Shown here in pieces: positions 5,860 to 35,900 of a stretch of 64,000 nucleotides of DNA; within the stretch, counting starts at the first letter, position 1, and every line of letters begins with the position of its first letter. Both the position numbers and the translations under genes were made by a program. The DNA is from Nereocystis luetkeana (lineage: Eukaryota > Sar > Phaeophyceae > Laminariales > Laminariaceae), in assembly GCA_031213475.1 (NCBI GenBank), contig JARUPZ010000005.1, positions 13,277,260 to 13,341,259 on the forward strand, written 5' to 3'. Under the pieces are notes generated by a model, which saw nothing but the letters and a program-made list of their open reading frames with translations, made no database searches and had not been told where the DNA came from.

Positions 5860-6878
5860 CGAAAACTGAAAGGGTGCTCGTTAGGTAGATGTTATTTTAT
5901 ATTGTAGCTGGTATTAATAGTATTGAGTTGCTGTGTTTTCGGAGAGACGGAGCCGTCTGCTTCCCCACCGGCTGGCCTTGACATAATATTTTTCCTATCC
6001 TGGGGTATTGGGTATTGGAGTATGATATGATATTCATAGCGTTCATAGATCCACTTCACAAGCGCCACACATCGACTTTATTTAGCAGAGCGGGTAAGAC
6101 GGCGTGATTCGTATTTGTTATCCGAACGTGCCTAGTGCCTAGGCCAAGAGCCTAAAACGGGTGGTTGAAAGTATCCGCCGCACGGCGTTGTGGGTGCCTC
6201 ATATGACCCTGCTTTCTACCTGGTAGGTGACAACGTAGGTGTTAAGTGTTTATTGGAGCGCCTCCCTTTCACACACTGCACATACACAATGCATTGTACA
6301 GACGTACCTGGTAGGTTTTTATTACAGTTCTCCCCTCGCACGTACGTACATGCTGATGTTCGGAGATTGTGAGGTGTTCGCCTATCGAAGGGTTTTGGTT
6401 TGTACGCTATACCTGGTGCGATGTATGTTTTGTTGGGTTGCAACGCCGACAGGAAGCCATCCTTACGCGGGTGTCAATCCGAGTTGAGTCTACTACTTCC
6501 ATCGCAAGTGACTCTGTGCGCAGATTGCTACGATTTCCTCGTTGTCGCAGCGTTTGCAATCAACGTGAGAGCTGCCATAAGCGGCCAGAGAAGTATAGCT
6601 GATAGCTGATAACTTGCCTTCCACTGAAGGCAATAATTTACATTATTATTTGTGGCCCTCGCGGTTTGGAGGCCCACGTGTGTAGCGGTGGATGCCCGAA
6701 CCGGCTACGAGAAAGACTGTGTTACCGAATCGTCATGTCTCGACTTGTTGCGGCTCTCCTTTGTATATTCGTGCACTGCCAGCGGCATCGTTTGCGCTCG
6801 CTGTTCTTAGGGTCATTCTTATCGGAGAGTTTTTTCCTTCTTTTTTTTTTTTCCAAATACTGGAATGTTAACGAAACC

Positions 6879-8304: not shown

Positions 8305-9094
8305 TCTAGACCACACCACCCGTACTACTTAGGGGCGTTTATATATATATTGTCGTACAGCATGTTGGTGGCGGCGGCGATTCAGCAAGCCACGCAGCAG
8401 ATATTCGCCCGCGCTCGCGCATATCGCGCACGTACTCGTGAAAGCGTACGAGTAATAGTGCCGAGTCAGCTGAGTCAGCCGTTGGTGCCCGTCAAACTGG
8501 GACATAACTTCGACAACAATTAGATTAACAATAAAGAGCTAGCTGCACACAACCGTTATCACGCCGTATGCATGTACGAGGTACCTGGTATGTATGTATC
8601 TGTGTATGTCGTCCTTCAGAATCAGTTTCAACTGGTTTCTACGAAAAAAAGGCTTTCAAGTTGTTGGCGGGAAAATTCGAAAAAATAATATCGGGCCTTC
8701 TGCGTTTTGTCGCCTACTTCCGCCAGCCACTTTTTTTGTCGACGAGAGTTGTGCCGGGGTGCGTGATGCAGTCGCCTCGTACTGCTGCTGTGCCGGGTAT
8801 GATACTGCGCTGTATAATGTACGAACAAAATCGATACACGATATTGGTACGTACGTCGACGATCTGTAGACGATACTCGGTACGTAAACGCGAGCCATCG
8901 AATACAGTAGTAGCAGCGACGAAGCGACGAGGTGACAAACCGAAACTGGTTTTTTTCCGGGAACGACCGTTTCACATTTTTTTTTTGAAATTTGGCGTTT
9001 TCGAAGATGCGGCGCAACTCCCCATCTCTGATCTTCCAAGCACTGCTTCAATCATCTCCATTCATCGCCGCTGGAAGCTCTAGCCCCCTGCAGC

Positions 9095-12000
9095 ATGGCT
9101 GCCGCGCTGTCTCTGCAGGAAGATATACTGGCGTTAGTCAAGAAACACGGCGACACGTGCCTCCCCGAGGACTTGCTTGCTCGGCTGGCTGAAGAGGCTC
9201 GACTATTGGCAGTGCGGGAACAAATCAGGTACGAGTCCAGTGTTCTTCGAAATACCACAACAGCGCTGGTTGGCTGAGCAAGAGAGGGCAAGATCAGGTG
9301 CAAGCGACATGAAACGAGCGCACCAACTATCATCCTGTCATTGCACAAGCTGCAGCTGCAGCAACAGTCTCTGGCAGTCTGTTATTTGTCCCCCAGTTTG
9401 AGGTGCGCTTCTCCGGGGGGGGGGGTTGCTGCATGCATCGTGGTTTTGCACCAAGTGCATCGCTGCGCATCACGTCTCTGGCGCAGCCTTGTGCTGCGGC
9501 TTGCGGGCTTCCATCTATCTGTCTATCTGGCTCTCCGCTGTTGACAATTACTGCTGTAAATGACTTGGCATACCGCGTATCAGTAACAGATTTTGGTCCG
9601 ACTCCGGGACGTAGTCGAGTGTAAATGTGGCGGGAACAATATCATACGAGCTTGACACGACGACTTTTACCAGGTCGCATCTAACAGCGTTATGGTGGAA
9701 TGGTGGAGTTCCCTTGCCACGGCGGCTTCTCGTGACGTTCCCTCAAGTTGTTACATACGCTCGCTCTTGTGGCTGTGACGAAGGCCAACCGCTTGCCGGA
9801 TTATTTGCCAAACGTGGACCTGTAGCAGCACCTCTGCGGCTCTGGTCCACACCTGCGCAGGAGACAGAACACACAAACCTGCGCACGAGACAGAACATCG
9901 GGGCATAAATGAAAAACAGACCTCCCGTGATTTGGGTATGATGTTCCCGTTCAGATGCCATATGGTGTTCCTTGGGCACGACACACAGCACGACTGCACT
10001 TTCCTCACCCCATTCCCTTGCCTATTAATATTAATGAGTTGTTGCGCATCATGATGACTCATAGCCGGTCGCCCCGGTGGTTCAAGTGGTGAACCTCGAA
10101 TTCTACTTGTTTGAGTCCTGGGTTCGAGCCCCAGGTGGGTCGGACTTTGACTTTATTTGCAAAAATAAAAAAGGATTCAATTGTTGAGAGCGCCTTGCAG
10201 CGTGGGTAGGCACAATTCGATGCGAGTCGACGAGGGAAGAAAAGGCTAAAATATTCTCGCGATAAAAATGAAGGCACGTACCGTAGCGGGAAGGGGGGAG
10301 AAGAGCCTGCTATGTGACCCCGGATCTGAGTTACGAGTTGGAAGGAGAGAGAGAAGAAGATGTGCGAAGATCATGAATGGGATGAAAATAAATGAATAAA
10401 TAAATAACTCCCATCCTCCTTCCTGCTGCTTCATTCCTTCGAAGATCCCTCCACGAGGCGGACCGATTTGGTTTGTTCTCGGAGCCGAGCGGCCAAGAAG
10501 AGGAGACCAATGCTGACGAGGACGACGGTGATGCAGGGGAGGACGGAGATGCCGAACAGCAGGGTGGCAGCAGTGGGGCAGGAAAGGACAGCAACGGGCA
10601 GACGCTGGTGCTGCCGGACAACGTGCAGCACATGCTGTCGAACATGAAGATTACACGCCTAGATAAGGTGGGCGCCGCGAACAGCACGACTGCAACAGCA
10701 GTACCCCTGGTATGTATCTGGTACCAGGTATACAGCAGCAGCAGCGGTACACACAAGCCCTCCATCAAGAAATTGGGATACTGTCCCAGACGACATTAGA
10801 TTTCTTGTTTTCAAGAACGGGTGTGTTCGAAACGATCTTTAGTATAACCGCCACCGAATTTCTTATTCCCCCGGAGGTGTAACCTGAAGGTGAGTTTCTT
10901 GTCGGACTCTTTTTTGTGAGAAGGCCTGCACGAACTGCATATCGGTGCGTAGTGTACAGAAATACTGAATCATCGCACATGCGCCTGACAAAACCGTCTC
11001 ACCCCCCCCCTCCCCGCCGCCCTTTTCCCCTACCCCCCCCTTCCCCTCCTCCAGAAGTATATCAATAGTTGAAGAACATCTGCCTCCCCTGGTCCCCCTA
11101 CGTCGGCGTAGAAACCCCTCCCTACTTCCCGTCCCCCTCCCGAGCATGGAATACCCCCCCCCCCCACCCGCCTCCTTTGTGCTGTGTAGAGGTTGAGTTG
11201 GCGTCGGTTGGCGACTACGCTGTAAAACATGCCGCTCACCACGTGAGCTGCAGCTATAAACAACCAGGAAACCGCTTACGAGTATTATTATTTGTTTTGA
11301 CTGTCGGTGACAGCTGGCGATCGAGTTTAGATCATTTGTTCGGGCTGGATAAACTTTACTCCGCACAAGGGAATGATCGCATCGCATACCTGATATTAAT
11401 AGTGTTTCTGGTGAGCCAGCAACGAGTCAATTACATAGTACTCCCATTGCTGTCTCTGGAAGTGGCCACACCGCAAAACAAATTCACGCATTAAGACTGT
11501 CATCCATATGCAAGTCCGCCTCACAAGCGGTTCTTATTAATAGTAGGATGCAGCTCACCCTTAACCCTTTTAGAACCGCAGTCCCGTTTTGGGGGCAAAC
11601 TACTTAAAAAATGAGTGATTTGTCCCCGAAACGGGACTGCGGTTCTAAAAGGGTTAAATCCGACTCGCCGAACACCTCACGGCGCCTCGCGTTCGGTGAA
11701 TGCAATGTCTGCCTGATCGATGAAAACCCGACGTCCTCCGTCCCGGCATTGTAGGGGTGCGAGGGTGTATGGTCATGGGACTACCGCCATGCATGATACC
11801 TGATATCGAGTACGTCCCCCCCCTTCCTTGAGCATGGATTCCTATACTATTAATACGTACCAGGTACCAGGTACTGGGTATTATTAATCTACCGGTATAC
11901 CGGTTAAGTGTAGGCGTATGTATTAGTTACGAGGAGATGGCATTGCACTGTCTGCTCTGCATCCGCTTACTGCTTGCTGCATACCTGGTACCAGGTAGCA

Positions 12001-15000
12001 ATGTATTTCATACTACAGTAGTACTACGGGGGACCATAGTTAATAGGACCTATGATATACATAAAAACCTACCAGGTATATATTTAACCATTTTTACTAA
12101 CAATATTTGGTCCTATTAACTATGGTCCCCCGCAATAGTAGTTGTATTAATAGTATCTCTGTTGTAGAGCTTGCATCTCTCTAGGATTGAGGAATTATTA
12201 ATAGCACGTATTATACACTGGCTGTGTTGGATGTCGACGGGTAGAAAGAGCGGTGTAATGTGACGAATGCACACGTCTAGTCATTCCAGTATCGACTATT
12301 AGTAGTGCAGCAGGTAGTAACAACAGGAGATGTATCGGTTTCGCCGTAACTGGCCAAGATAGACAGGAAAGGAAAGGACAACCTGGTAGGAGTATGCCGT
12401 CGAGCGAACTCTCACTACTACTCACTATATGAAGGGACGCGTTTTCTTTCGCTGTGTAGGTTTTGCACCACCTCGACACTACTACTATTGATCAACTACT
12501 ATAGTACCGGTATCAATAGTCGGCTGTTTACTGATGTACGCTGTACAGCAAAATACGTGCCGTACTACTCTTTGTGGTACAAGCGCTGCTGCTGCTGCTG
12601 CTCCTGCTGCTGCTGCTCCTGCTGCTGCTGCTGCCTGCTACGCCAGCGGGGCCGGTAGAGCCACGGCTCGCAAGTAACATACGCACCAACACCCACCAAC
12701 CTACCCCCACTCATCCACCCAACCCACCCTACCACCTACATCTTATATACTTACCTGGTATATATTATGTACGTAACAGCAGTATAATAGTTTTTTTTTT
12801 GTCTATCTGGAGTGACCCCAGATTATCCCTTGATGGACCGAGCGCGGACGAAGAGAAGCATATCCCCCTATAAAATAGCCCTGCTGTATCCTTCTCAAGT
12901 AGGTGCATACCTGGGGCATTGAAACTAATTGCAGCATGGTAGTGGGAGGGTGTAAAGTGCTGTCGCGGACTGCTGTACACGAACAAAACATACCCCAAGT
13001 CTTCGTGAGTCGTCAATCGACCCTAAACATTGTTGCAGCAGTAACTTACAATTTGTTGAGTGCTCTAAACTGCTGTCGCATGCTACATACAGTTGTCTGA
13101 ATATTAGTATAAGTCGTACACAAAAAACACAACGTAACCGAAATACCCCTCACGGATGACGCCTCAGGTGGCGGCGTTGAACGGTTTCACGACTATCGAC
13201 GCAGAGGTGGAGTTTTCCCAAGGGAACGCGTCCACCAGCAGCACCAGCCCCAGCCACCCCTCCCCCCACGGCAGCGCAGCACCGCACGCAGCGGGAGAGG
13301 CAGCAGGAGGAGGGTCAGGGCCACCCTTATCCCCGGAGAAGAAGCCGCCCGTGTACCTCTTTTTCCGTTTCCGAAGACAGCCCCTGCCGAAAAACACGGA
13401 TGCTTCAGCCTCAGGCAGCGACTCCTCCGATTCTGAGTCTGGCTCAGGGTCCGATGATGGCAACGACGTCTTCCTCACAAACGTCGTTGGAACGCGCACC
13501 AGCAGCGTGACGGTGGTGAACCTGTCCGACGAAGAAGAGGAGGCCGAGGGAGACAGTGCGAAGGCTGCCGCTGCCGTTGTTGCTCAAGCTAAGGGTCGTC
13601 GGAAGGGTGGGAATCATAGCACTCCCACACCGAAGAGTGGCCGCGATGGTGGTGGTGATGGTGGTAGGCAAGTCGGGGGAGGGGCGAAGGATGGGGGACT
13701 GCAACGGCGTAAGAGGGCCAGCAGTAGAGGGGGCGAGAGCGACACAGGGAACGATGGGGATAAGCGAAGGAAGAGACCGAAGGGCACGGAGGGGGGGGAA
13801 GAGGAAAAAGAGAAAGAGACACAAGAGGGGGAGGGGGGGGCGGGTTGCGCAGAGGAAGTGTGCCAGACTGGTTGCTGCCCCGACGAGGTGATGATGCGGT
13901 ATATCGTTCGTGGTAGTGTTATATGCCGGCCGATTTTGGCCAAGGATCTTTCTAAAATAATCGTCCCAAGACCCTGCTGTTCTCTATATGTGTATGATGA
14001 CGTGATTGCTCACTCGAAAAGTATTATTAATAGATGGCCGTTCTCCGTCACCAAACCGTAAAAAAAACTAAATCGTACTGGTACACTATTTTCTAGTGTT
14101 TTTTATCCACAACGGGATTGCAGTCCTTCAGACCTATCATAGAAGCGTTAAGCTTTGACTTTGCGATTGCTTCCTTGCCGTTCTGACGGATACCGCTGTA
14201 ATTCTGAGTGCTACGGTATTGAATAGGAGTCACGTCTTGGTCGCATCGGCCATCAAAAAGTCATACCAGGAACGCATACACTCTGTGCTCAAAACTTCAT
14301 GATTTCGCGGGCGATTCCGTTGCATCCTTCCTCCCCCCCCCCCGGTGAAGCAATTGCGCTTTGAGCCGAGGACACTTGTTTCCTACACGGTCAGCGGTGG
14401 GATGGGCTTCGAGAAGCCGAATGTTCTTCTGCAGGCTGTCGTTTACGCGAGAGGAGATGGGCCGGCGTGCGTGATGCCTCCTCCTACAGGTCTAGGCCCG
14501 CACGCGGGCGAGGAGGAAGGTATGTCGGGTCCCCGCACTGCTTGTTGCTCCATAGATGTGCCGTTTTTGGCCTCTTTTTTGGAGACGAACCGCTTGGAAT
14601 TTGAATGGGATACATAGACAGCAGTGAACGTTTTAAACATCTGTTAATAGTGAAGTTTACGTTGTTAGTATTAATAGTTACCTTAGGGATGTGGTGGCAG
14701 ATTCTGTTTTAAGGGACAGTCGCAGGCCGGGCGAGATTGCCTCTAATTTAGCGTTTGCGGGATGAAAAATGTAGATGAAGCCGAGTTAGCGATGATCCCC
14801 CTCTCCCTTTGTGTCCAGGTGGTGAAAGTAGCCGCACATCGCATCGACTCTCGCTTGAGAGGTTCGATTGTTACCATTCCTCGTCGTAAGTAATTTACGC
14901 GTTGACTTGCAGTTGATGTGATTCCTTCCAACCGCGAAGCCTATTAATTTATTAATACTATTACGGAGGACCATAGTTAACAGGACCGATGGTATACATA

Positions 15001-18000
15001 AAAAACTATATATTTAACCATTTTTACTAACAATATGTGGTCCTGTTCACTATGGTCCCCCGAAATAGCGTAGTTTCGAGGTGTGACTTGCTCAAGAGGG
15101 CCCTTCGGTCAAAACGAACAACATGTACTTGCGTCCTTGAAATGTAATATCCCTTTTTTTCACTGGAGCAATTATATTTCTGGTACGTTAACGACATATC
15201 ACGACTCCTTACAGAACACGGCATACCTCCATTACTATTAATATGCCTCAGACCATCTTCCGACCAACGTATAGCTTGTTTGTTATGGTCTCTATAATAG
15301 GTGTTGAGACCCTCGGATCTGCCGGGGAAGGCAGCCATTGCTGTGTTTGCATCACGTAACGAATTTGCTCAGCATGAAGAACTTCGGCCATTCCGGAGAT
15401 TCTAATTGGTTTTTAAACTCTGCTGTGACCTTGCAGGACGCTACGGGTGGTCGAAGTATTAATAGACGCTCAGATAGGTTCCCCAACTAGTATTCATAAT
15501 AGTGCTTGGCATTGTCAACGAGAATCGGAGGAAAGACAGTATCAGCAGCCTGAGAAACTTCATTTCTTCAATTTCGTGTATGCGTAAGACTGGTCCCTAT
15601 GCGGTTCGATTTCGAGCTTAAGATTTGCTATCTTATATCTCAAAAATGTATGCCCCTGCTTATGCTGTCCAAATATGCAAAGTCCGACCGGAGGACAATC
15701 GATTTGAGAATCCAATGACGTGATTTTGCGCAAAATCCCGTATGTTCTCTAAATTCAAGATGTTATCCACGACAGCAAACAGCAGCAGAACGGTCCATGA
15801 GTCGATGAAACAGACAAATCGGAAAAATGGGAACGAAGCCTAAAATGAGAACCAAGCCGTATCTCCAGAACCATGTGGTGTATCAGAGAACCAAAATGAT
15901 CCTGCGAAACCCCTTGGCCAGCCCTGTGAGAGGAGCTCGTCAGAACGGTCATGCTCCATCTCGTGCCTTCGGGTGGGCGCAAAAAGCGATATACGCTGGC
16001 TCTATTGTGATTTCTCTAGATGCTGGCTACGGCGGCGATGCCGAGGACTTCCAGCCTGAGCGACAGCTCATTCGAAGGCTGCTGTACAGCCCCACAGGAC
16101 TGTCAACTTTTTTTCTTGGAGTTGTACACAATTGGTTTGCTTTCTAAAAAAAACCGTCCGTTCCCATTTTTTGTTTCGTTCCCATTTTTCCGTTTTGTCT
16201 GTTATGAGTAGGATGGTGACACAGCTGTATAGCGACGTTGCTTCGCGCCCGACGCGCGGTCGCCGGGCGGCGCTCTCCACTGCAGTCGGCTGGCGCGGGC
16301 TCGGGCCTAGAGACGAAGAGAAGCGCACTCGGTGCGCACCTCTCAGAGGATACGCACTGGTACAAAACACTGCTGTACAGCAGCAGTAGCAGCAGCAGTA
16401 GCAGTAGCAGTCAGTCAGTCAGTCACACTGTGACACACAAAATACGAAGGCAGGTTGACTCTAGCGCACTCGCCACGTCTCTTCCTTCGCCACCAGACCA
16501 GAGGCAGTCAGCCTTGGCTCGGACGCTTGGGTCCTACGCGCAGTGCATCGCACCCAGCGCGTCTCTTCCGGAGCCAGATCACAACAACAGTCGTTGGTCT
16601 CGGCGTTTGCTCGAATTGCAGCACGCACAATATATCTGATTTTCCCGCATAGGAAGACTGTTTTAATTTACCGGGTTCACACCTGGAAAGGCGATCGGGT
16701 CAAAATCTTAAGCTCATAAATCAAACCCACAGGAAATAGCCTAAGAGGCACTTTTCGTGATCAAGAGATCGTCGGATCACTCCAGCGCCTGACACATGCC
16801 GATACGTATTATTTACGCTCTTTTAAACTGCCGTGAGGAATATAGTCTGAGCATTCGAACTCGAGGAAGCCGTGTTCGGTAGGCTGTCGTGAAAAGTCGC
16901 GATTTTACCAGAACTAGTGTTTCAACTGAAAATAACGGATTTTATTTTTCAAGAGACTGCAGTGCTCTTTTTTTTTTGCACGAAGGGCGCCCTTAGGGCC
17001 CATCTTGACGGGGACTTCTATTTTTTTTCATTTTTTTTTTTTTCTAATTTAACTTGCATCTGATGGGCCGAAGAGTGAACGACCAAGCCGGAAAATTAGA
17101 AAAATTCAATTTGAGTGAAAAGTATTTTGGGACTTTTTTCGTGTGATTTTTTTAACTTCAGTTTGGAATTTTGGAGTTCCTCGGCCTTGATGCAGCATGT
17201 TCATGGGGGGTCAACACCCTCGGTGGAGTCTGGGGCGATTCTTGGGCACTTCGGTGACCACGATCGAGGCGATAAAACTCGAACCTCAACGAGAGGGGAC
17301 CGGAGCAATAGCCACACCCACGCCCACAGACCAGAGAACATCGTACCCCGGCGGTGGCGCCTCAAAAAAAATCATGGCGGCCGCAAGCCCAATTGTTCGG
17401 CCTGCTCGATCGGCCATCAAACACGAAAACCTAGCGAACGAGCAAAAAAACGGAGGATACGCGCGAGACCTCGATAGCTGCATCACCGCTGCTGTTCCGC
17501 ACGTGGCGCTTGAGGGCTCCCTCCGCCCACCCAAGACACCCTGAGAGTGATAGCTTCCTATCCTGCTCGTCCAAAAAGAAAAAGAGGCTGGCGGTGGCGC
17601 GCACGCGACAACGCAAACCTTCGTTCTCGTCTACGCTCGTCGCTGTTTGTCGGCTGGGCGTTGTGTGACGCGGCGCGTTATTCCGAATTATGTTTTGATC
17701 GACAACTAGTACGCCGTCCCCCCATAGGACCCGAACACGTGTTTTTTCGAAATCAAATTAAAATTCGTTGCAGTTGAAATTTTATTTCCAAATAGCGTTC
17801 CCCGTTAAGATGGGCCCTTATAGCTTGTGGGGAAACAAGTTGGCATGGGCAAATGGTGGATTTCGGAACATCGTCTCCCGAAAGCTGGAGTTATTGTTTC
17901 AGGTGCGCGCGTCCTCTATGAATAGTAATTCTATTGATACTACACTACTGTACGTATGTTCCCGACACTGACGTTATCCGCTTTTTCTCTGTGCGCTCAC

Positions 18001-18435: not shown

Positions 18436-18947
18436 GAACTGGGTACTGGCGGGTAGCGATGGCTGGGGGGACGAAAGCGACAAGGCCCAGTAGTAACACA
18501 ACGGGGGGTGGCACCGAACCAGCACCGACCGCATGGTTATTGTATTGTATACCGCTCTGTCCCGAAATATCAGGACATCTTGGGTTAGATATTGATACGC
18601 AGACGGCCCTTTTAGTTGGGGACAGAGTGGTATTCGTACGCGAAATTCAATTCAAAGTATCTATTTTCGCAGATGTATTTTTTCATGGATTTTGGATTTT
18701 TGCTTGATTTTGGCGACAGCGAGGGGGGGCGACTAGGGTTTCAAGGAAGCGGGGCTGTGATTTTTTACGGTTTTTATCTGGTCATCAATCGTGTTTCGGT
18801 GGGTAAAGCGCCTCGCGATTCGCGATACAACGCCGGGGATGTGCAAGGTTATCTTGTAGTAGAAGCCCGAGTGCCAAGCGCAGTGCTCAGCAAAGTTTAT
18901 TTCGTTTTTGACGATCGTGCCGGCTCGATATCGTCCTGCACGTGTAA

Positions 18948-19037
18948 CCCTTTTAGGACTGGAGTCCCCATTTTGGGGACAATTCACTGAAATTTCAAGT
19001 AGTTTGTCCCCTAAACGGGACTGCGGTTCTAAAGTGG
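18948..19037. mobile_element. TTAA-type hairpin MITE (family A), copy
   Basis: CCCTTTTAGGACTGGAGTCC at the left, GGACTGCGGTTCTAAAGTGG at the right, TTAA at 19038-19041 and a decayed GTAA at the left. Confidence 0.82.
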
Positions 19038-20078: not shown

Positions 20079-21036
20079 CATTCTATGAGATAGGAGAAAA
20101 AGCAAGAATCAGGAAAGAGAATGCGCAGATTTTCGCAGATTTCCGTTCGAGGGTCTTGATCAGAGACCAACAGATAGATATGCGATGTGCCAACTCATCA
20201 TACAACAAACCCGACCAACTACAACACATGTTTACGAGTACACACTTGTGGAATAACCACGCCAGCCCCATGTCTTGGCCGCGCAATAACAATTCTAAAA
20301 ACACTGTGGCCAAACACAATCATGTACTATTAGATGTACCAGGTACCAGATCCGCTTCAACAGCCCGCGACGATATCATGAATCGGGAATGTTGGCAATG
20401 GCTCATCAGTAGGGCTGTCCACGGGCTGACTCAGTCAGTAGTGAATACAGAATACACTGTCGTCAAAATCAACCATTCCACTGGATTGCAGCAGTATGCT
20501 GGCAGAGCGAATCGAGTAGCGATAAAATAAACGTGACGGCCGTGCGTAGCTCGGCCAATTGCCCCTCCCTGGCTGGCTAGAGGGCCCCGCCGGAGGCGCT
20601 GCCGGAGGGGAAAATACACCATTTTTTCTCGTATTTCCCCATCACAATCGACTCTCAGCACTGCATTGGCCGGGAATGATTGCGGTCGTCGACACAGAAA
20701 AAAAACAAGAAAACTACCACGAACAAATGCATGCAACGCGTGACGGTGATGACATTGACGATCTTTATGTTCTTGTTTTCGCATAGATAGGTCATTAGAC
20801 ATCGCGCTCATGTATACCCGGTACTATTTGGTGTTACCCCATCGCTCCTACCTGTACCCTAGGGGCACACGGTATAATATTAACATTAATAGTAGGCTCT
20901 CACTACGCTCTCACCGGCACCAAACGCAAGAAAACACGAACAAAAAAAAAAACGACACGAAAAGTACCAAAAAAACACAACGCTATACGTACGTAAATGT
21001 AATCGGTATCGGATATCAGGTGCTCAACGCAGAGAG

Positions 21037-21528: not shown

Positions 21529-23091
21529 ACGTACGTACGTAATATAAAAATTACTGGCGAACATACTGGTAGGCTCAATCAGTACAATATCACTGCCAGC
21601 ACATCGTGTCCCAGTGCCCAACCCTACCGAACAGGGATTCACTGAAATTTGCACCATGAAGGCTGCGAGACGCATGAAACTGTACAGCGCTAACCATATA
21701 CGTTGCCGTGCTGTTCCGCAGTGCACTGCGTAAATACTTAGGATAGACGGTCGTATCAGGTACGAGGTTACCGATTTCAGTAACAAGAGTTATCAACGAT
21801 GTGTGTCGCAAGTTATACTGGTGACGGCGAAATGACAGTACGCATTGCTCTGGCAATGTTGCGAAGCTAGTGAAGGAGCGCGAAGCGCATGATGTGCAGT
21901 ATTACAGTGTGTTCCTCGAACCAAATTAAACTCTGCTGGTCGCGTTGGAGGCCCGTGAACGGCCAAACAAAGCGTGCCTGTCACAACGATTGAACCCACG
22001 CCACTGCCACGCCGGAGCACTTTTACCCTCGTCTGCATTAGTGTACGACCTACCCCCCCCCCTAAATCTGCGGTAGATAGACAATGCACAGTCAGTCACG
22101 AAAAAGGTAGAAAAAACGAAACCCGAGGAACCAGAAAATAGGCCTGAAAACTGTGTACAACATCGAAGGCCGAGAGGCACCGCCGCATACTCTAGCTCTG
22201 CTCATGTCATGCAGACACTCTTGTGCTGCCCTGCCGTCCAAGGCTCCACAGAAAGTGACACGAGTGTGAGCGTGCCATATCTAAAAAAAAAAAGTGTCGA
22301 TGAAAGTGCGGGGTCTTCCCTAGTTGAGTACTGATATCAAGGTAACTTCCGTTCGCTGATTATTTTCATTCTGACACAAAAGGCACTTTTTTGTCTCGCT
22401 CAAAAGCATGCAACGTGAGTACAACACCTTGCGGTTGACAGAGCCCTCCTCGTCATGCAGAAACGCATTGTACAAATGTAAACCTTACGCAATATAAACC
22501 TTGCGATGAATTCGCATCCGCAGTTTGAACAGATTTCACGGTTGTGGCCAACTATGCGGCAAAAAATGTCGCCCCGTCAAAATCCGTAGACGCATAACTC
22601 GGCGTTTACGTTGATCGTCCCAGAGAGTGCGATACCGTACAGGCTTCTCTTTACCACCGTAGTTGGTTGCTTTATATACATCTCTTATTTAATAAACCAA
22701 ACATGAAAACCAACGCAGGTGCATGCTATGTACTCCTCCTGTAGGCCACGTATAGACCACGTGCGACTTCCAAAACTTTGCCCAACCGTTTATAGTTCTA
22801 TGGGACAGAGGAGAATCTCCGTGCCGTCCACCGAATGAATAATGTATTTGCCCCCGACGAGGGCCCTGGGCGTGAAGGACAAAATAGCGCGGCATACCTG
22901 GTACGTCGGAAAAAAGCAAATCGCCCAGTACGTACAATCTATGAAGAAAGAAAATGCCTCAGGCATATTACAAAATAATGATAACAAATCGACGCTACTG
23001 CTGTGCCGAACCCTGGATGGTAATTTGTTTCCCTCGATGGCAAGACCCCACCGGGATAAGTAATTTACAAAAAAAAATGCTGCAAAATTCG

Positions 23092-26000
23092 TTACTCTAA
23101 ATCGCACGGCCTAAGGAGGCGGTACGTGCGGGCAGCGCCTGGGCCCGATCGTCGAGCTTCGATGATGTAGAGCCCGGCGTTGGGAATCTTTCCGATGTTG
23201 GTCATTTGGTCCAGACCCAAACCCGAGAGGGAGAGCAACAGGATCCGGAGAGTCCTACGGGAGGGACAGGGCCGAACAAGGAGTGCAACTGTATGTGTTA
23301 GTATTTAGGCTATGTATGTCCGGGTGCACGGATAGCCTACCCGGGTACAAACCGCCTACCCAACTGCACCTTACCTTTGAAGGAGTAGGATCTGGAAGCA
23401 AGGGTTCGTTAATTCCACGGCGTCATGGATATTGTTGGTTGTATGACGTGAACTCAAGGTAGACGGGAACGTGGCATTTCATCTTCTCGCTTCAACGCGC
23501 AGGGCTTGATGGCGGTTACCATACCCTACCATACCGTGGTACTCACAGCATGTACTGTAACTGCCGTACATGTTTTTCCGTAACAAGACCCTACACCCCG
23601 AGAATGTCCGCGCCGAGTCATCGTGGGGGTAGTACAATAGCATGCGCACGGTTCTACGGGGAGATGACTCGCTTAGTGCCATGACTCGCGTACGGATTAA
23701 AAATTACCTGCCATGGCTAACGATGAGGTTCGTGTCGTGTCCCCTGTCCAAGCAGGCCTCCAAAGCTTTGCTGGCACGAGCCTGGACCTCAAGGAGGCTC
23801 TCTCCTCCTTTCGCAGCCCTTCCGAAGGCAGACAAAAAAACAGGGAGCGGAGAGAACACGATCACAAAACCAGCAAATCAGGCCTTCGCGCTAAATGTTG
23901 CAACACGCAATCGCGGCGGCAATCTCTTATACCGCAGGTAGTCGTAATGCTGGAATATCCTACCATGCCCAGCGGCAGCCAGAGAAAGATAATAACGCAG
24001 GGGGGGGGAAACTGCGACAGAGCTCCTTTGTGTTAATATCAATTAGTATGGCGGTTCACTCCTGTTCAAGGCGCTTCTCAGAACCACCAATGATGTCAAA
24101 GCTTGAGAAAAAACAAATACTCACAGTAACTATCACCCTTGATTCGAGGTTCTCGAGCAAAGAGTCTCTCTGTGACTCGACGGATACACCCGAGTCTTGA
24201 AAATGCTGACATGCATTATACTTACAAGGGATTATATTTCTGCGGCCGAAGAAATTTATGTACCATACCTGGTATACCAGTACGGTATACGTCATACACT
24301 GGGTGTACTGTCACGTACGTAACGATGTGTCACGCGTGCGATAAGATAACACACACCCTGGCAACAACTTCCGAGGCGATCGTCTCCAGAACAAGGGGGG
24401 CACAAACACAAAGCACGACTAAAACGGTAGTTTTGGCAAGGTGTAGTCGCGATCTTTCCAAAGACCATTGCTCGGTATTCGCACTGTGAATATTAATAGA
24501 CTAACCCTAGACTATTAATAGACCATCCCCAACATGGGCAGAACCAGATTGGAACCTCGTCCGAGGGGCGGCATGCCGGTACGTGCGGCGTACCGTACTA
24601 CAGTACCTGGTACCAGGTACCTGGTAGTATCTACCGTACGGTATATGGTTGAAGGAAGCAACGGTCACCTGTCGAAGTTTCCGTCGTCCCAAGCAGCCTT
24701 GAGCGAAGCCAGCCTGGTGTTCCAAGGCTCGAGTGCAGATTCCTGGCCCTCCAGCTCCCCCCAGGACAGCTCATCAAGATTTTCAAGATTCCTTACAAGC
24801 ACCTGTTAGTATAGAAGAGTAAAACGATCAGGGTGAGTTGTCAAATCCGGTAGGTATGATATCAAATTTAAAAATCTTAAACGATCAAAATTTGCCAGAT
24901 TTAACCGCGGGGGACGGGATACAACCATATGATATGGTATACACTGCAGAAGTCGTGGTGGAAATATATGGAACACATGATGGCAGGTGCAACACGCTAG
25001 CGATAGCACACCCCCTGTGACAAAATCAAGATACGAGGTTCTCCTTAAGTAGGGCGGCACACACAACGAAAATAGGGCGTTGGGAAGATCTCGCCGAGAC
25101 CGGTCCGTAGAATCCTTGCTTAAAATCCTCGCTCAACGTCTACATCCTCCCTGTTGTCGAGCAAATCAGCGATGAAGATTCGTCCCAAGAGGAAACCGAT
25201 CTCATGTGTTACGCGGTCTACATGTCCTTGGTATCAGGTATGCGGCATACTTGTTCGCGTGTTCTTCGTGGGTGTATTAGGCACAGCGCTGACACATTCT
25301 GGGAAGTTCTGACATGTACGGTTCAAAACCTCACGAAGGGTTTGCCGTTCCAGTTAGCGGGCTGGTACCGAGGCTAGTATTTTGTACCAGATACTTGTTC
25401 ATCGAGATGTTTGGTACTTTAGCATGTTTCGTGACCACGAGCGAGATTCCAGGGAAAAAATGAGCGTCATGGTGGTATTACACACGTGGATATCTTCAAT
25501 ATCATCACGAGTATTCCTGGTATAATCATGTGTACGTAGATCGGTTTAATACCTGCGCCTTGTCGCCGCAGGAAAAGGGGTCTGCTGCTGGCGACGCTCC
25601 CTTGGGCGACGACGACAAGGCCGCTCCACCGCTGGGCATCGTTGGCATCCCGTTCTCCTGGGCTCGCTCCACGCACTTCACGTTCATCTCGGCGATTTGC
25701 ATCGCAGTCTGAACAAGAAACCATAAAACAACAAACACAGGGAAAAAACAAAGTGTGGGCGGGTGTTAAACACCACGTACGGTAGAACAGGGTAGCATAT
25801 TGCAACACCTAATTCGTAAGCGCGCCACAACCAGCTGGCCACCACCCCCTAACACGAAACATGCCACATTGATAACAGCAGATAGAATATATGTGTGCGC
25901 TTTCTTCGTCTCGTGTATTTTGTGGCAGCCGAATTTTCGATTGTTTGTTTTTCGGATCTTCCTATCAATGGGGCTCCAGCACCTTTGTGTGACCACGGAC

Positions 26001-28920
26001 TCCTTCGTCAGAGAGTTGATGTGAGAAAACAACAACAACAACAACATGTACAATACCGGTAGGTGACAGCGGTTGACGGCGTGTTCTGTCGATTCAAGAA
26101 TAGGCGTTGATACCATATTATGTATCATGTATTATGTACTCCTCCACCCCTTCTAGCACCGCAGTCCCGTTTAGGGGACAAACTACTTGGAATTTCTGTT
26201 GTCTGTCCCCAAAACGGGACTGCGGTGCTAGAGGGGGATAAGCAGGTCGCGCACAACCAAGTGGCCGAATGACAATCTTCGCAGTTATTGACGCGCTCGC
26301 GCTGGGTATAATACAGCAAACAAAAACACAAAAACACAGGGCGATCATACGACGTACGCTTTCCACGTGGGTTGCTCGAACGCACACAAGGGGCGGCAGC
26401 CCTTGCAGCGGCAGGTACTGGAGTACAGCAGTTTTACTAGTCTATTATTAATAATAACATTCGAATAATAACCGGTGCGAATACTTCGTTTTATATTGCT
26501 GACGACCTGGGCTACACGGGTATATGTAACATACGAGATTTTATATGTACTTCAACCTGTTCCGCGTCGACCCGACCAATACATCTGTACTCGTATAGCA
26601 TGGTACGTAACGGTATGGATTTTGGCAGTGATGCTTTTACCACGGAACAGATCTATCATGTGGTCTCCGCGCAATCTCAGTGCAAGATGGAACATTAGAC
26701 GTAAATACACCGGAGCACAAGACGGTATGATATGATACCATACAGCCGGTCGCCCCGGTGGTTCAAGTGGTTAACCTCGAATTCTACTTGTTTGAGTCCT
26801 GGGTTCGAGCCCCAGGAGGGTCGGACTTTGACTTTATTTGCAAAAATAAAAAAAGGGATTCAATTGTTGAGAGCGCCTTGCAGCGTGGGTAGGCACAATT
26901 CGATGCGAGTCGACGAGGGAAGAAAAGGCTGAAATCTTCTCGCGATAAAAAATGAAGGCACGTACCGTAGCGGGAAGGGGGGAGAAGAGCCTGCTATGTG
27001 ACCCCGGATCTGAGTTACGAGTTGGAAGGAGAGAGACAAGAAGATGTGCGAAGATAATGAATGGGATGAAAAAAAAAAAAAAAAAAAAATACCAGGTACC
27101 TGGTACAAAATAAAATCAGCACGAAAAAAATGTCAGCCGGCTTTTGCCCAAGAACATGCACGACCATGTCAGCGAAGAACATGCCGCCCTGCCGCCCAAT
27201 GTCTCGATGTTCGTTGCTTGCGCTGGTATGCAAACGCCTGCTCGTGACCCTAACAATGTACGAGTATATACTGCTGCAACTATCTCTATGTGGCGCAGTT
27301 ATGTGGCCACAGAGCTTAATCTCCCAAGAATGAAGCACAGACACTGGTTGACAATGCGCTGGATGTCGACGGGTAGAAACAACGAAAAGCACACACACAC
27401 AGCTTTCGATTGTCAGCGCCAAAGACGACGAAAAAGAGGCACGAGTACAGCAGTATCTGCCTTGCTTTGCTTTGCTTTGCTACTATTAATATTAATAATT
27501 CTGCTGTTACCTACCTGTAAACAAAAGCAGCAGTACGTAGTACGTACGTACTGCTGCTGCCGTATCATACCTACCAGGTACCTGCTGCCGTGAGCTCGTG
27601 AGCTGGTGAGGTCGGCCGACCTTCGGAAAAGTGTGTCGCAAGCCGCAAGCAATGCTGTCTATCGCTCACGTGTCCCTTGAAAACTAAACACGCCGCCCAG
27701 CCGCCAGACGACCAAGTTCGGAATACTGCTTACTGATACCAGGTACCTGGTAGACGATATGAAAACTGCTGTAGCCACGCGCACCCATGGTAGCCGGTCG
27801 CCCCGGTGGTTCAAGTGGTTAACCTCGAATTCTACTTGTTTGAGTCCTGGGTTCGAGCCCTAGGAGGGTCGGACTTTGACTTTATTTGCAAAAATAAAAA
27901 AAGGGATTCAGTTGTTGAGAGCGCCTTGCAGCGTGGGTAGGCACAATTCGATGCGAGTCGACGAGGGAAGAAAAGGCTGAAATCTTCTCGCGATAAAAAT
28001 GAAGGCACGTACCGTAGCGGGAAGGGGGGAGAAGAGCCTGCTATGTGACCCCGGATCTGAGTTACGAGTTGGAAGGAGAGAGAGAAGAAGATGTGCGAAG
28101 ATAATGAATGGGATGCAAAAAAAAAAAAAAAAAAAAAAAATGGTGCGGTTCAGGAGCCCTCCGACTCCTGGAAAAAGCAAAGCTGGTGAACGACAAAAAA
28201 CAGCAGCGTGCGTCTCACCTCGTGGGCGCGATGGAGGGAGCTCGCGGTAACGGTGTCGAACGGGACGTTGCGCACAAACTGTCCGAGACCTGCGGCCTGC
28301 GATAGTCCAGCGGCATTCAAGTGCGCGTTCACCCCTCGCCCTTGCAGCTTCCCCGCCGCGTTCATGTCCGTCTGCCCGTGTCGCACCAGGAACAGCAGCT
28401 GCGAGGTCGTGGTGGCTCGGGCGTGCCCGTTCAACGGCACCCCGGCGGAGGCTTTAGAGCGACCCTTTGCTTCAGCTTGCGATGAGATCGGGCCGTGATT
28501 ATCGCCGAGTTTGTTGATGTCGGTGCTGCTGCTGTTGTTGTTGTTGATGTTGCTGGTGAGGAACGACTTCGAGGTATCGCTGTTGGTGTCACCGTTGACG
28601 CAGCTGGACGGGGTGGCGTCGGGAGAAGGAGCCCATCGCTTCGCAAAGCTGGGGTGGAGGGTCTCGAACGTGGCATCGAAGCTTGTCGCGGAGTTCGCAG
28701 CGGCGCTATCTTTGGTCACCGGGGGAAACCAGCGATAGAGGGCCTCGTCCGCTTCGTTCGCCGTCGGTACTACCGGGAGCTTCTCCGGCTTGCGCTTCTC
28801 CATGATGATCACAGGGATCTGAGGGGTCAAAACAACACGCGCGCCGCGGCGGTGGTTGGGGTAGGAGGCTTCCAACCTCTTCGTCTTCACGGACCGCAAC
28901 GCTCGCATCGTTGATGTCAT
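23092..28920 (-). CDS. Histidine phosphatase superfamily (phosphoglycerate mutase-like) protein, complete, 5 exons
   Basis: Minus-strand exons in transcript order are 28920-28219, 25708-25553, 24802-24669, 23818-23708 and 23254-23092; all introns are GT-AG and phases match (421 residues, TAA stop). The catalytic motif LVRHGQTDMN puts the phospho-accepting histidine at about residue 181, and TASSLHRAHE/TAMQIAEM spans the first join. DELSWGELEGQ, GGESLLEVQAR (acidic residue near 337) and LIVSHGRT (second histidine, about 366) follow in the family order. The fold is that of cofactor-dependent phosphoglycerate mutase, fructose-2,6-bisphosphatase and broad-specificity phosphatases; the substrate cannot be told. 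About 170 N-terminal residues are disordered (Asn/Ser runs) and unusual. MEKRKPEK at residue 40 is an alternative start. Intron 1 (2.5 kb) holds two SINE copies. It is head-to-head with SHMT. Confidence 0.9.
26148..26236. mobile_element. TTAA-type hairpin MITE (family A), copy with compensating changes
   Basis: Arms CCCTTCTAGCACCGCAGTCC and GGACTGCGGTGCTAGAGGG stay complementary although both differ from the other copies (GCACC for GAACC). The flanks are not TTAA. It is in intron 1 of the histidine phosphatase gene. Confidence 0.8.
26744..27089 (+). mobile_element. tRNA-derived SINE, copy 2
   Basis: Nearly identical to the copy at 10063, with intact A- and B-box-like sequences (B box at about 26802-26812) and a pure A tail of about 21 bases. 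ATACCA occurs just upstream and directly after the tail. It lies in intron 1 of the histidine phosphatase gene, antisense to that gene. Confidence 0.9.
27792..28140 (+). mobile_element. tRNA-derived SINE, copy 3
   Basis: Same sequence as copy 2 apart from a few changes (one in the T-arm, GAGCCCTAGG). It has an A tail of about 25 bases, and ATGGT lies directly before the element and directly after the tail. It is in the same intron and orientation as copy 2, about 700 bp away, and ends 79 bp from the first-exon donor of the phosphatase gene. Confidence 0.9.
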
Positions 28921-29983: not shown

Positions 29984-32900
29984 ATGTCTACTACCGAGGT
30001 TCCTTCGACTCTGCCTGGCAACGTACCCCTTTCCGAGCACGACCCGGCCCTCTACGACCTCATCGAGAAGGAGAAGGTGTGAGGTTAGGCCCAGGCTACG
30101 TAATTCATTTGGGGCTTCCATAAACGCGGTGTGGACGTGATCCCAAGCCGTACCCTGTTAGCTACCCGTAACAAGAAAATGCCCGGCTACTGGGTAGGGC
30201 ATTAGCGCTGCCCCGTGCCGTGGATTGCTTGGCTCGTGAGGCAGCTTTTTCGGGGTGGCTGGGTGGGTGCGTTCGTTTCGATTTCTGGATGATGCAATCA
30301 GGTGTCCTCTAAGGTAAGCCCCTAAGGCGCGCACGGCAGGCTACCGTCCCTTACTCTTGAGGTCGCAGCAGTCCGGTGCGCCGAGCTACCTCGGCTGGCA
30401 TCGGATTCCTTGAACCGCCCCATCTGGATTCGGGCGGGTTCCTTCGCTCATGTTGTCGCTTCCGTTCGGCGGGGTCTTTAGTTGTGTGATGAGGGCGGCG
30501 TTGCAAACCACCGAAGGACGAGAGGAAGGATCTTGATGCTCGTGCGTGCGCGACCCATGCTTTGCGGCCTCTCTGACTACATGCTGCCGTGGCATGGTAT
30601 TAATAGTCACCTTGCGACCACGACCACGGGAGGTGTGATTCTGGCTTCGTATCTACAGGAGTACTCGTATTGTGGTGTTTCTGCTGTACAATGATTGAAA
30701 CCCTGGTATTGTTTTGCGACCGGTAGGTGGAAAGCGCTATTAATATTGATAATACCAATAACCAAGAGCTCAATCATGCGCGCTCCATTCCTGCGTGCTG
30801 TCTCATTGGTTGTTTCTTGTTTGGGTTTGTACATACTTGTTGCGCGGAATCACAGGCTCGCGCTCTGCCTGAGATATATCGCAGCATAGCAGCACATGTG
30901 AATATTCCTGTTGTGTGGCCGGTGTCTGGCAGTTGTTGTGATGTCATGTATGATATGAGATATCTCCCTCTTGTCCTCTATTGTGTATACCAGTACCTGT
31001 GGTATGTGTTTCATTCAATTAGACACCCATACCTGGTATCGTGCTCGGCCGGGGTCATTGTACCACAGGTATCACGTCAGCACTACAGCAGTATGTCGTC
31101 TGGCCTCTGGTGTGCTGACGCATACCGCCGAACTCAGTACACAAGAGTACAACAACTGCTGTGGTACACACACCTGTACGTGGTTTTGCGGTGTGTGTTT
31201 GAGGTTTCGTTGACGAGGTTAAGGTCGGGCATTCCGATCGAACCAAGTAAATATCGACAGATTCTCCCAAATTGACACATGCAAGTCAATCCGTGTGTTT
31301 TGCAGACCCGCCAATGGTCTAGCTTGGAGCTCATCGCCAGCGAGAACTTCACTTCGAGGGCGGTGATGGACTGCTTGGGCTCCGCTCTCACCAACAAGGT
31401 AAAATGACGTAGACTACTCGTACGGCAGAACTAACAATGGTATACCTGGTATGCCGGTAGCGCAATCCATGTGGCCCTGTGAGCATACCGCACAGCAGAA
31501 CGAGGTTTGCTTCTGCCGGGATAAAATCGTACGCTTGGCGGAACGTTTGTTGATGCAAAAAATCAAATGTTCGTGTTTCGCCTTGGGTCAGCACGTATAT
31601 ATGCGGTTGCTTTAAGTCGCACGCATCATGTCACATACTGGTGCGAATACACATTGACTACTCTGTCCCCTACCTAGACTTGATGCGGGGTGCTTCAATT
31701 TCCCAGGAGTTACAGCCATAACGTTTTTGTCTGCAGCACTTCGAAACGGTTACAAATCTATGCTGCCATGGTATCGCGCCAAGCCGCAGTCACACGCTCC
31801 GTTTCGCGTACATCAATGGAACGTTCAACACCCACCGTCGTTACCGGTCCCTCATAATCTCGCAAACCGCACCAGTATTGGCCTCGTGCAAACAGTGTCC
31901 CTCTTAGTAGCACTTGGTATGTTCTTGTACGTACGACCGAGCCCGTCTAGCTCCCGCCAAACCTGAAAAGGGAAAGGTAGATGGTCAATGGTGGTTATTG
32001 GTTGGTGATTGATTATTGCGCCGCGGGTTTGAGCTCGCTAGGGACAAAATTGACCTCAGATAAGTCAAGGTGAGGACAACCATAACAACGACGTACGGCT
32101 TTCCCTGTTCCGTCCTTCTTTATGCTGATGGTGTTGATTTTTCTGATGTCGATGCCGTCAGTACGCCGAGGGCCTGCCAGGAGCCCGCTATTACGGCGGA
32201 AACCAGGTGGTAGACCAGATCGAGAGCCTCTGCCAGTCTCGCGCGCTGGAGGCGTACGGATTGGACCCCGAGAAGTGGGGAATCAACGTGCAGCCTTACA
32301 GGTGAAGTATACCTGGTATTTCGCTACCCTGCATGTTGGCTGCTTCCCTGGGCGATTGAAACACGAAAAAATACCCTTGAAACGCGCTAACGTACCAAAC
32401 CCCCTGTCCTGTTGCGCGATACCTACTGTATCAGCAGTACCTCTGCTACCGTTTTTATTGAAGCACGAAAGGTACGTGGTCTTCAAACATTATGAAAACA
32501 TATACTCCTTGCGAGTACCGGTACGAACCTTTTAGGACTGCAGTCCCATTTTGGAGACTACCAGGTACAAGGTAAGTGACTACTAAAAGGGCTAGCCCCT
32601 CTGGGAGATATCGATCTAAACAATGATTTATATTTTTAGTGTTCTCAACTACGTGGTATCTAGGAGCTATAGAGCGGCGTGAGGGCCCAGAAGTATGGGC
32701 GCAGTGTCACCCTGTGCCCGTGCGCACAACGCTTTGCATTGTCACTATTAATAACTCGGACACCAATATATGTATAAAATATATGCCATGGTATATATAT
32801 ATTCCCAGAATCACGCAGTGGCCGTTGCTGTAGTCATCCTATTATATAGTCACCTTTTTATCGGCAATTTTCCCCTCTCGAATCCGAAGAGGGGCACTAA

Positions 32901-35900
32901 CTACTGTAGCACATACCAGTACTCACTCATCTGTCATGTTTCGCGATAGCCTGTTTTCTTTAACACGAAAAACGCTCTTCTGTCATGCTTTGCGATATGT
33001 ACCAACAAAGCCTCTGCGACGCGGATGGAACACGGCCATCGGTCACTTTGCGCGCGCGCCTCGCGCCTAAACCACCTGCATACGGAACACATGACCATTC
33101 TTGAAGAACTCGAACAATATCGCTGTACTTGTACAGCGTGTTTGGCATTGCAGTAATGGTCCCTCTTTAGTGCCGATAGCATATGCGCTAGCCAACACTA
33201 CCGGCACTGCAGCGGCAACCGGCACTATTTCGCTCACTACCGCGCTATTAATAATAAATCCCATCTGTGCCGAGCGACTTCACCGGCACTATAGGCGCTC
33301 CACTCGTGATATACACTTATCATTTTGTCGACTATACCCACTGCTGTACCACTCTGTACCCAAATACGAAGACTTTTTGTATTTCATTTTAAGGTTCTGG
33401 ACCGAGTGGTGTATTTCACCTGGTGTACCTGGTATTATGTAGGTAGCATGCGCGAAAGCAATCCTTCAGTTGGCTCCGCGCGACAGACGCTGATGGAGGG
33501 GGTTCGCTGCATGAGTTAGGCGTCAATCCTTTCGACTCGTGCGAGGTCCACGAGGCCTAATATTTGTATAATACTTACGTCGTATGCATGTGGCGTCTTT
33601 GCGTTTCACGGCGATTCGAATAATTATCTTTATCTCGTGTTTTTATTCACGGCGGTGCTAGCCGTGTAAATTTTCGCGTGCTTTTGCCCACGACGGCAGT
33701 GGTGACTGCATACGAGCACGAGCACGAAGGACGTGGTATATAACTCGCGCGTGATTTTCGTCTCGATCACGATGGTTCTAAGAACAAGTCTGAGCATGGC
33801 ATGCTTTTTTTGTCTCTTTCCCTTGCAACTTCCAGTGGCTCTCCCGCCAACTTCGCCGTGTACACGGGGCTGCTGAAGCCGCACGACCGCATCATGGGAC
33901 TCGACCTCCCCTCCGGCGGCCACTTGACCCACGGCTTCTACACCTACTCCAAGAAGGAGGGCACCAGGAAGGCCGTGTCGGCGACGTCCGTGTACTTCGA
34001 ATCGCTCCCCTACCGGTGAGTGAAGGTTTCTACAACGAATTGCAGGGGGCATTTGGGCTTCGGGAAACACTTGCCGCTCTGGCTATGCACGCATGAAAAT
34101 ATGGGTTTCCAATTGTCTAATTTGGCTCATGAAGGAGGGCGTTGGAATTTTCACGCTACCCTAACTTGCTGTATTTGACAGTTGCAACATCAGACGGGTT
34201 TGTGTTTCTTTTGAAGCGCTTTGCGGTGTTCTCCTGTATACATGTATTTATTGGCCTGTTTGAGCAAACATTTAGTAGTTTTCCACTGATCACATGGCAC
34301 TCACTCCAGTGCTGATCTACGGGTTTCATATTATCAATACCCTAAAACGCAACTCGGTACACGAGCGATACATACGTTACTCCGAAGCCAATGAGCTTGA
34401 ACACATCAACTTGCATAAAATATGCGAAAGCGTAAGATACTATTACGGGGGGCCACAGTTAACAGGACCAAATATTGTTAGTAAAAATGGTTAAATATAT
34501 AGGTTTTTATATACACCATAGGTCCTGTTAACTAGGGTCCCCCGTAATACCTGGTACCTGGTACATGAAAGGCTTGCCATTAGCAACAAGCCACTGGTAT
34601 TTGACCTCACGCTTTCCGTTCACTTTCTTTTGAAAGGGTCAACCCCGAGACCGGGATCATCGACTACGAGGACCTGGCCCGTTTGGCGGGGCTGTTCAAG
34701 CCGGCAATGCTGGTGTGCGGTGGGTCTGCGTACCCTCGGGAGTGGGACTACGCGAAGTTTAGGGAGATCGCCGACGCTAACGGTGCCCTTTTGCTCTGGT
34801 GAGTAAATAGTTGCTGTATTTTGTTGTTCATGTATGTTGATGTGTTGATGTTGATGTATGTTGATGTATGTATGACTGTTTGTATGTTGATGTGACAACG
34901 CTCATGATGATGACGATGATGGTGACATTCTCGCTTTTCGTTCGATTAGCTCATTTCGCTAAATATTATAACCCGCGGTCAGTTTCGATTAAAGCACATG
35001 AGACACTTACCGACACATAAGTTCACTCCGACATGTCTTCACATTCCCTTGCGGGTTGAAACTCGTTCTAAGAGTACGCTCGGGGATGTCACTATTGAGG
35101 GTAATCTAGCTTTAATCGCACCCCCGCGTTGTGATATCCGTCAATCACGATATGTTCGCCTCCCCCCCCTCCCGGGCGTGTTTCGGTATTGTGGTATCAC
35201 GATTTCTCTCTCAGCGACATGGCCCACATCTCGGGCCTCGTTGTGACGAAGGAGGCTGCCAGCCCCTTCGACTATTGCGACGTCGTCACTACCACCACGC
35301 ACAAGTCTCTCCGCGGCCCTCGCGCAGGACTCATCTTCTTCCAGAAAGTAAGCGCTTGAATAACCAGCAAGCGCTTCAAGCACTCGCGTTGACGATTGCG
35401 TAGGCACCTCCAACTCGTGTTGTGCGTTCCCGTGAAGTTCGCACTTGACATCTGCCCCCCCCCCTCCCTTGTGTTTTATCGCCGTGTCGATTGTCGGTGT
35501 GCACAGCATCTCTACATCTTGTGCGTGGTGTGATGATTCCTGTACGATTGGCGCGGCCGAATAATATCACGCTCGTTTATTTTTGTATCGGAAGGTTTTG
35601 TCGTTGGTTCGCTGCCCTTAGGGGGGGGGGGGGGGCGGGGGTGCATTGATTATCGTGAGCACATGCCGCACGAGTAGTATCTAATACTGTAATGGCAGGG
35701 GAAGTAAACTTGGGTGTATTTTGTACACATTGCACCAATCTGCTCAGGGCCCGTACCTAATAACTGCGGCTCGTAAGTATTTTCGCTCGTATTGAAATAC
35801 GTTTTTTGTTGTTGCGTGGTTTTGGTCGGCGAGGAAATTCTCGATATTCGTTTGTTGGCGGGGAGATGATATCCCTTTCTTTTTTTGTTCAACCTTTTTA

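Follow-up and report, generated by a model that had tools for sequence, protein, structure and literature searches.

The stretch of Nereocystis luetkeana DNA analysed here (64,000 nucleotides, referred to below as the window) carries a short palindrome at many dispersed places, which raises the question of what this palindrome is and how it came to be scattered. The first-pass annotation had described it as a 16-mer occurring at nine listed positions, at a density beyond chance. The true unit of the dispersed palindrome is the 9-mer TACCWGGTA (W = A or T) and not the 16-mer, TACCTGGTACCAGGTA, which is made of two TACCWGGTA units with one TA in common, at a period of 7. Indeed, the motif or a near form was recovered at 9/9 of the listed positions, and the 16-mer is exact at 11982, 24604 and 48512 and inexact at the other six: the sites at 10715, 11858 and 34548 have one mismatch each to the 16-mer, those at 27090 and 27737 have its halves in reverse order with two mismatches, and that at 20337 has three mismatches. 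The claim about density was borne out: (i) TACCWGGTA occurs 42 times in the window versus 0.63 expected under a second-order Markov model, (ii) the half form ACCTGGTA occurs 46 times versus 1.97, and (iii) TACCTGGTACCAGGTA with up to 3 mismatches gives 20 matches versus 0.20 in shuffles. The more permissive TACCNGGTA is found at 44 sites (centre T in 26, A in 16, C in 1 and G in 1), in whose flanks no common sequence beyond the motif was seen by eye. Of the 33 arrays into which the 42 units fall, 26 are single, 5 are double and 2 are triple; they are given here without strand:

6217..6225, single TACCTGGTA
6305..6313, single TACCTGGTA
8582..8590, single TACCTGGTA
10722..10730, single TACCAGGTA, with TATCTGG just before it (perhaps a decayed unit)
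11858..11873, double unit TACCAGGTACCAGGTA, one mismatch to the 16-mer, left part of the finding first noted
11982..11997, double unit TACCTGGTACCAGGTA, the exact 16-mer, right part of the finding first noted
12070..12078, TACCAGGTA within a MITE1 copy, +7 bp relative to the empty sister copy at 15007
12752..12760, single TACCTGGTA
20337..20345, single TACCAGGTA, followed by a partial unit
22895..22903, single TACCTGGTA
24266..24274, single TACCTGGTA
24604..24626, triple unit, centres T-A-T
27090..27105, double unit, centres A-T, directly after a SINE tail
27572..27580, single TACCAGGTA
27737..27752, double unit, centres A-T
31030..31038, single TACCTGGTA
31443..31451, single TACCTGGTA
32310..32318, single TACCTGGTA
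32559..32567, single TACCAGGTA in a decayed MITE of the CCCTTTTAG type, seemingly at the TA in the middle of this MITE (by-eye comparison with copies)
33426..33434, single TACCTGGTA
34548..34563, double unit with T-T centres, at one end of the MITE1 copy 34440-34549
39913..39921, single TACCAGGTA, one TA in common with a TACTGTA
41778..41786, single TACCTGGTA
46540..46548, single TACCAGGTA
46572..46580, single TACCTGGTA
48512..48534, triple unit, centres T-A-T
50050..50058, single TACCTGGTA
50102..50110, single TACCTGGTA
50340..50348, single TACCTGGTA
52076..52084, single TACCTGGTA, one TA in common with a TACAGTA
59092..59100, single TACCTGGTA
60323..60331, single TACCAGGTA
61131..61139, single TACCAGGTA

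The statement that the palindrome is not part of the MITE families held up, and the copy reported inside a MITE remnant near 32528 is the single unit at 32559-32567. The further statement that none lies in exons agrees with the overlap of 0/42 units with the coding-like segments of the window; this agreement (1.2 to 3.7 overlaps expected, depending on the threshold) is consistent but weak, because the gene models are crude. Three of ten candidate coding segments were matched in a Pfam search (histidine phosphatase, serine hydroxymethyltransferase and kinesin). Other repeats of the window are the following:

764-861, 5088-5185, 11560-11657, 18944-19041, 26143-26240 and 44101-44198, a MITE family with ends CCCTTTTAG beside TTAA, which we take to be piggyBac-like
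10051-10407, 26732-27091 and 27780-28138, a tRNA-Val-like SINE whose tail is A-rich, in three copies (in the first copy, ARAGORN predicts tRNA-Val(tac) at 10070-10143)
60364-60552 and 50378-50527, degenerate tandem repeats of 9 bp (ATCTATCTG) and 10 bp (ACTGATGCTA), respectively

Both tandem repeats fall within the kinesin gene or close to it; one exon of this gene, 49447-49566, is confirmed.

The abundance is not confined to the window. A genome-wide count had been proposed as a check, and its outcome is far from chance: the genome searched (465 Mb, 1987 contigs) has 1856 exact copies of the 16-mer and none of its reversed control. In twenty 10-kb stretches outside the window, taken at fixed positions on five contigs (C1-C5), TACCWGGTA was counted 44 times versus 2.6 expected, so that the density of units in the window is about 3 times that of this 200-kb sample. 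Extrapolation from these stretches gives roughly 10^5 units genome-wide, a figure that is rough because the sample covers five contigs only. Four further loci (L001-L004) were fetched through the presence of the 16-mer.

Where paralogs allow the comparison, units with empty paralogs are gains of 7 bp at a TA, by which TA becomes TA-CCWGG-TA. Clean gains of +7 bp at a TA were found at three positions, and one further case, of +14, is untidy. The first clean case is provided by two MITE1 copies of the window:

12022..12138, + strand, MITE1 copy with the 7-bp insertion
14959..15068, + strand, MITE1 copy without the insertion, its TA at 15007

MITE1 is about 110 bp long, and 28 copies in 276 kb span the TA equivalent to 15007. 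Exactly CCAGGTA is extra in 2/28 copies (window 12070 and L018:8053), TACTGGTA is present at the same TA in 1/28, and neither insertion is found in 25/28, the TA itself being mutated in a few. At L006:7563, five paralogs are without the seven bases, four of which have TA and one CA. At L005:5266, three ungapped paralogs are without the unit; the right flank aligned there is 13 bases long, and the case is missing from the paralog test of 83 arrays because this test required 15 flank bases. The untidy case is the double unit at L003:1501, where one paralog is without its 14 bases and also differs in the left flank. Most of the 83 arrays taken into the test are without any paralog in the data. 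Paralog alignments were ambiguous at L012:4504 and L023:1824, and at L003:2033 and L023:1978 the paralogs also carry the unit or a near form, so these gains may predate the duplication. In a list of seven-base insertions between repeats that was blind to the motif, 3/35 were classed as TACCWGGTA motif, and the insertion at L005:5268 is a fourth of this kind, outside the strict rule of the list. A short gain of fixed length with duplication of the target, as seen here against empty relatives, is what characterizes a transposon footprint.

The flanks of the units show a target preference that is independent of the core, as is characteristic of footprints. It was determined on 84 arrays, with tandem forms collapsed and L001-L004 included, against a background of 3000 of the 16322 other TAs. 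The preference is symmetric and centred on the TA, with the strongest positions being -7 (W in 141/168 flanks) and -6 (A), and with Y at -2 and A at -1 also enriched. W at -7 is present on at least one side in 83/84 arrays and on both sides in 58. The flank profile separates units from background TAs with a leave-one-out AUC of 0.82; the preference is statistical only, 5/84 arrays lying above the 99th percentile of background TAs. The TA at 15007 is the top-scoring one in the empty MITE1 copy, with a score at the 99.4th percentile of the background; the filled sister copies of this MITE1 are two of the 84 arrays on which the profile was trained. Among 935 control TA-N5-TA pairs, W at -7 was found in 56% of flanks versus 86% for the units. 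Two loci were excluded from these control pairs and from the TATTAATA and MITE1-end flank statistics given below: L010, a tandem array with 29 TACWGTA in 10 kb, and L019, a stretch of triplet repeats. When 72 single units were oriented by their centre base, no difference between left and right flanks was found at the 5% level (largest chi-square 7.6, 3 degrees of freedom); statistically, the centre base thus gives no direction and the target is symmetric.

The units also decay. There are 85 one-mismatch variants, where 59 would be expected and the reversed control gives 40; the excess is carried by transitions (44 versus 20.9 expected), whereas transversions show none (41 versus 38.1 expected), and at the inner C of the core there is no transition excess (4 versus 7.8 expected). 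Among the flanks of 36 transition variants, the share with W at -7 is 74% and the share with A at -6 is 46%, which is intermediate between the control (56% and 30%) and the intact units (86% and 52%), so a good part of these variants are decayed units. The variant counts suggest a divergence of the units of a few per cent. Statistically, this transition decay is what is expected of neutral scars, and it is unlike what is expected of maintained sites.

A second micro-repeat is dispersed as well: TATTAATA was counted 27 times in the window versus 0.38 expected (for example at 8244, 11535 and 27484) and 32 times in the 200-kb sample versus 0.81 expected. In some places it is seen as a gain of six bases at a TA, as at 8244 and 11535 in the window and at L020:810. 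Intact MITE1 ends have the form TA-TTACGGGGGACC. The letters T, A and C stand at -3, -2 and -1 in 71%, 71% and 58% of 24 MITE1 ends, and in 52%, 56% and 47% of 63 TATTAATA sites (a looser set of 37 MITE1 ends was compared as well). Since its flanks are like those of intact MITE1 ends, TATTAATA looks like a MITE1 excision scar: two bases from either MITE1 end, left between two TAs, would give TA-TT-AA-TA. MITE1, which is still present here, thus appears likely to leave TATTAATA as a short palindromic scar. The two micro-repeats are alike in having a short palindromic core between TAs, in being gained at TA and in occurring far above expectation. They differ in that TATTAATA has the core TTAA, the target TAC-TA-GTA and a parent that is present, whereas the CCWGG unit has a different target and no parent was found for it. 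Near 8244, a relative of the CCCTTTTAG-type MITEs has gained TATTAATA at its central TA.

Other short motifs are in excess as well. TACWGTA occurs 33 times in the window versus 9.8 expected (for example at 39913, 52071 and 62346, and also at L018:8274) and is seen as a gain at TA in paralogs, for example at L001:2139; it is possibly a third class of scar. The pair TACGAGTA/TACTCGTA occurs 16 times in the window versus 1.4 expected (for example at 48473 and 52371) and presumably resembles the Minos footprint.

On this evidence, TACCWGGTA is very probably what a TA-inserting cut-and-paste DNA transposon leaves behind on excision. Such scars would record very many past jumps, though no intact element was found in 276 kb. 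We infer a transposon as the agent, a five-base stagger, a mismatch step and the origin of the tandem forms, along the following lines, which would extend the Tc1/mariner scheme in the simplest way, to an element with CC(A/T)GG ends that is cut five bases in. On insertion, the TA of a favoured palindromic site, with the approximate consensus W A N N A Y A TA T R T N N T W, would be duplicated. Departure of the element would leave five of its terminal bases as complementary overhangs, CC(A/T)GG; pairing of CC with GG would leave an A:A or T:T mismatch in the middle, and the gap would be sealed. The mismatch would then be resolved to A or T, for a net gain at the site of 7 bp. Double and triple forms could arise when an element inserts again at the outer TA of an earlier scar and is lost once more. 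It is less probable that the stagger spans two bases and a filler base is added, because a C or G centre is rare (2/44).

Other origins were weighed against this reading, three of them following suggestions of the first-pass annotation. The 'mobile or self-copying micro-repeat' came nearest, for its link with mobility stands; self-movement does not, because a core of 5 bp can hardly move itself, and the scar of something that moved fits. The 'recombination product' is correct only if it is taken to mean the excision of a transposon and the repair of the site. As to the 'protein-binding array', a palindrome-binding protein that maintains TACCWGGTA as functional sites in introns and spacers would suit a motif that is palindromic, very abundant and absent from the coding-like sequence of the window, but the sites for which an empty paralog exists have gained 7 bp at TA, the flank preference at -7/-6 lies outside the core, and transitions accumulate in units that have no orientation. 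The suggestion thus fits poorly and is regarded as highly unlikely; a maintained motif was rejected, the transition excess indicating decay in a core that is not kept intact. Spread by slippage of a heptamer short tandem repeat, (TACCWGG)n, as in bacterial metagenome-assembled genomes, is scarcely credible here. The period of 7 is right and bacterial arrays of the same heptamer exist, but head-to-tail arrays of an identical unit are not what the window and L005-L024 contain: 68/76 arrays are single, and adjacent centres are opposite in 8/10 junctions of tandem forms versus 6/95 in the bacterial arrays. This opposite-centre bias between neighbouring units (one-sided P = 0.055 under random repair) weighs against the excision reading as well, as random resolution of the mismatch does not predict it; it may be due to chance or to an unexplained rule. 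The bacterial comparison comes from 40 stretches with triple units in prokaryote genomes (L025-L064). The (TACCTGG)n arrays in them have a heptamer identical to the one described here in an unlike arrangement, being head-to-tail and mostly of one centre base, and single units number 13 in 288 kb of these loci chosen for arrays. Such arrays were seen in many bacterial metagenome-assembled genomes, recurrently in the same bins. In viral contigs, from which near relatives of this genome are perhaps excluded, no triple array and no MITE1 end were found.

A rival of more weight, still improbable, dispenses with the transposon: seven bp could be added straight at TA breaks, for example by an endonuclease cut followed by a templated or untemplated repair that adds CCWGG. 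A 7-bp gain and a target preference do not by themselves prove a longer element, and no parent was found, either in 276 kb or, for DDE_3, genome-wide. Against such direct addition, a fixed five-base core at so many places needs a template, and TATTAATA matches the ends and the target of a MITE still present, so that an ordinary excision route seems to exist here. Excision scars are a better fit than slippage, maintained binding sites or a self-copying repeat.

The excision reading calls for a parent, which was sought in several ways. In 276 kb, no intact element with CCWGG ends was found: a terminal-repeat scan gave no CCWGG ends besides chance pairings of the units themselves, the inverted repeats examined gave none, and every TACCWGG-initial sequence among the TA-starting 11-mers present in at least 5 sequences continues into the scar. 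Likewise, 83 half sites TACCWGG without a following TA (276 kb) have no shared continuation, except for a few inside other repeats. A search of the whole genome for the DDE_3 transposase (PF13358) gave 0 matches at E <= 0.001. Two candidate parents were rejected: L015:4286 (ends CCAGAAAACGG) has no W at -7 on either side, and L020:3602 (ends CCGGG) sits inside a longer inverted repeat. A larger repeat as source was set aside as well, there being neither a common flank sequence nor a common continuation of half sites. The condition under which the first-pass annotation would have given up its view, that all sites are 'fragments of one larger repeat', may in part be close to the excision reading: what remains in the units probably comes from the ends of a larger element, but they are not fragments of any repeat found in 276 kb. 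A more tentative and rather doubtful proposal is that an undescribed family of TA-targeting transposases cuts five bases inside the element ends, leaving CC(A/T)GG scars, and that its elements made some 10^5 jumps without accumulating copies. The scars would then be the main trace of the family and a genome-wide odometer of cut-and-paste transposition, whose element is now lost or so rare that ordinary repeat annotation would miss it.

Three aspects look new: the number of scars, the uniformity of their five-base core and the lack of a parent. In the titles and abstracts searched, subscription papers lying outside the search, there was no recognisable report of the motif or of such numbers of scars, an absence that is not thereby proven; among the papers listed as printing 11-letter pieces of the motif, the titles are unrelated. 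Repeat annotation targets elements and not 7-bp scars. If the excision reading is true, scars in one genome could outnumber the intact copies of a family and tally its past jumps, reveal the target preference of a transposase whose gene was not found, and add small indels across introns and spacers. How frequent jumping without multiplying is, and whether any transposase cuts with a stagger of five bases, would become directly testable.

Among known systems, the footprints of Tc1/mariner elements (Sleeping Beauty, ZB and Mos1) are alike in the TA duplication and in the few terminal bases left between TAs, as far as the cited passages describe them. In these passages, Tc1/mariner enzymes insert at TA (PMC5481204), and a duplicated TA target is also what is found here; the Sleeping Beauty footprint is TA-flanked and centred on W, being printed TAG(T/A)CTA (PMC2874221), and shares its central W with the present unit. 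A preference for a palindromic AT-rich target, described for Tc1/mariner in the cited part of PMC7913693, may likewise be a point of resemblance, the target here being symmetric, with YA-TA-TR near the centre, but strongest at positions 6 and 7. The unit is unlike these systems in its core of five bases, as against excision footprints of 2-4 bp (PMC7913693) or the 3-bp stagger of Mos1 (PMC5481204) in the passages cited, and in having no DDE_3 transposase match and roughly 10^5 copies by extrapolation. Membership of Tc1/mariner is not established, because no parent was found and the DDE_3 search was empty. For Stowaway, the cited passage of PMC1925063 records an element inserted adjoining an existing footprint. 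The footprints of Stowaway MITEs in a Triticeae intron, as described in the part cited, are also alike in that short terminal fragments stand between TA repeats; they differ in concerning one locus across a phylogeny, with scars of varying length, whereas here a uniform scar is found throughout one genome.
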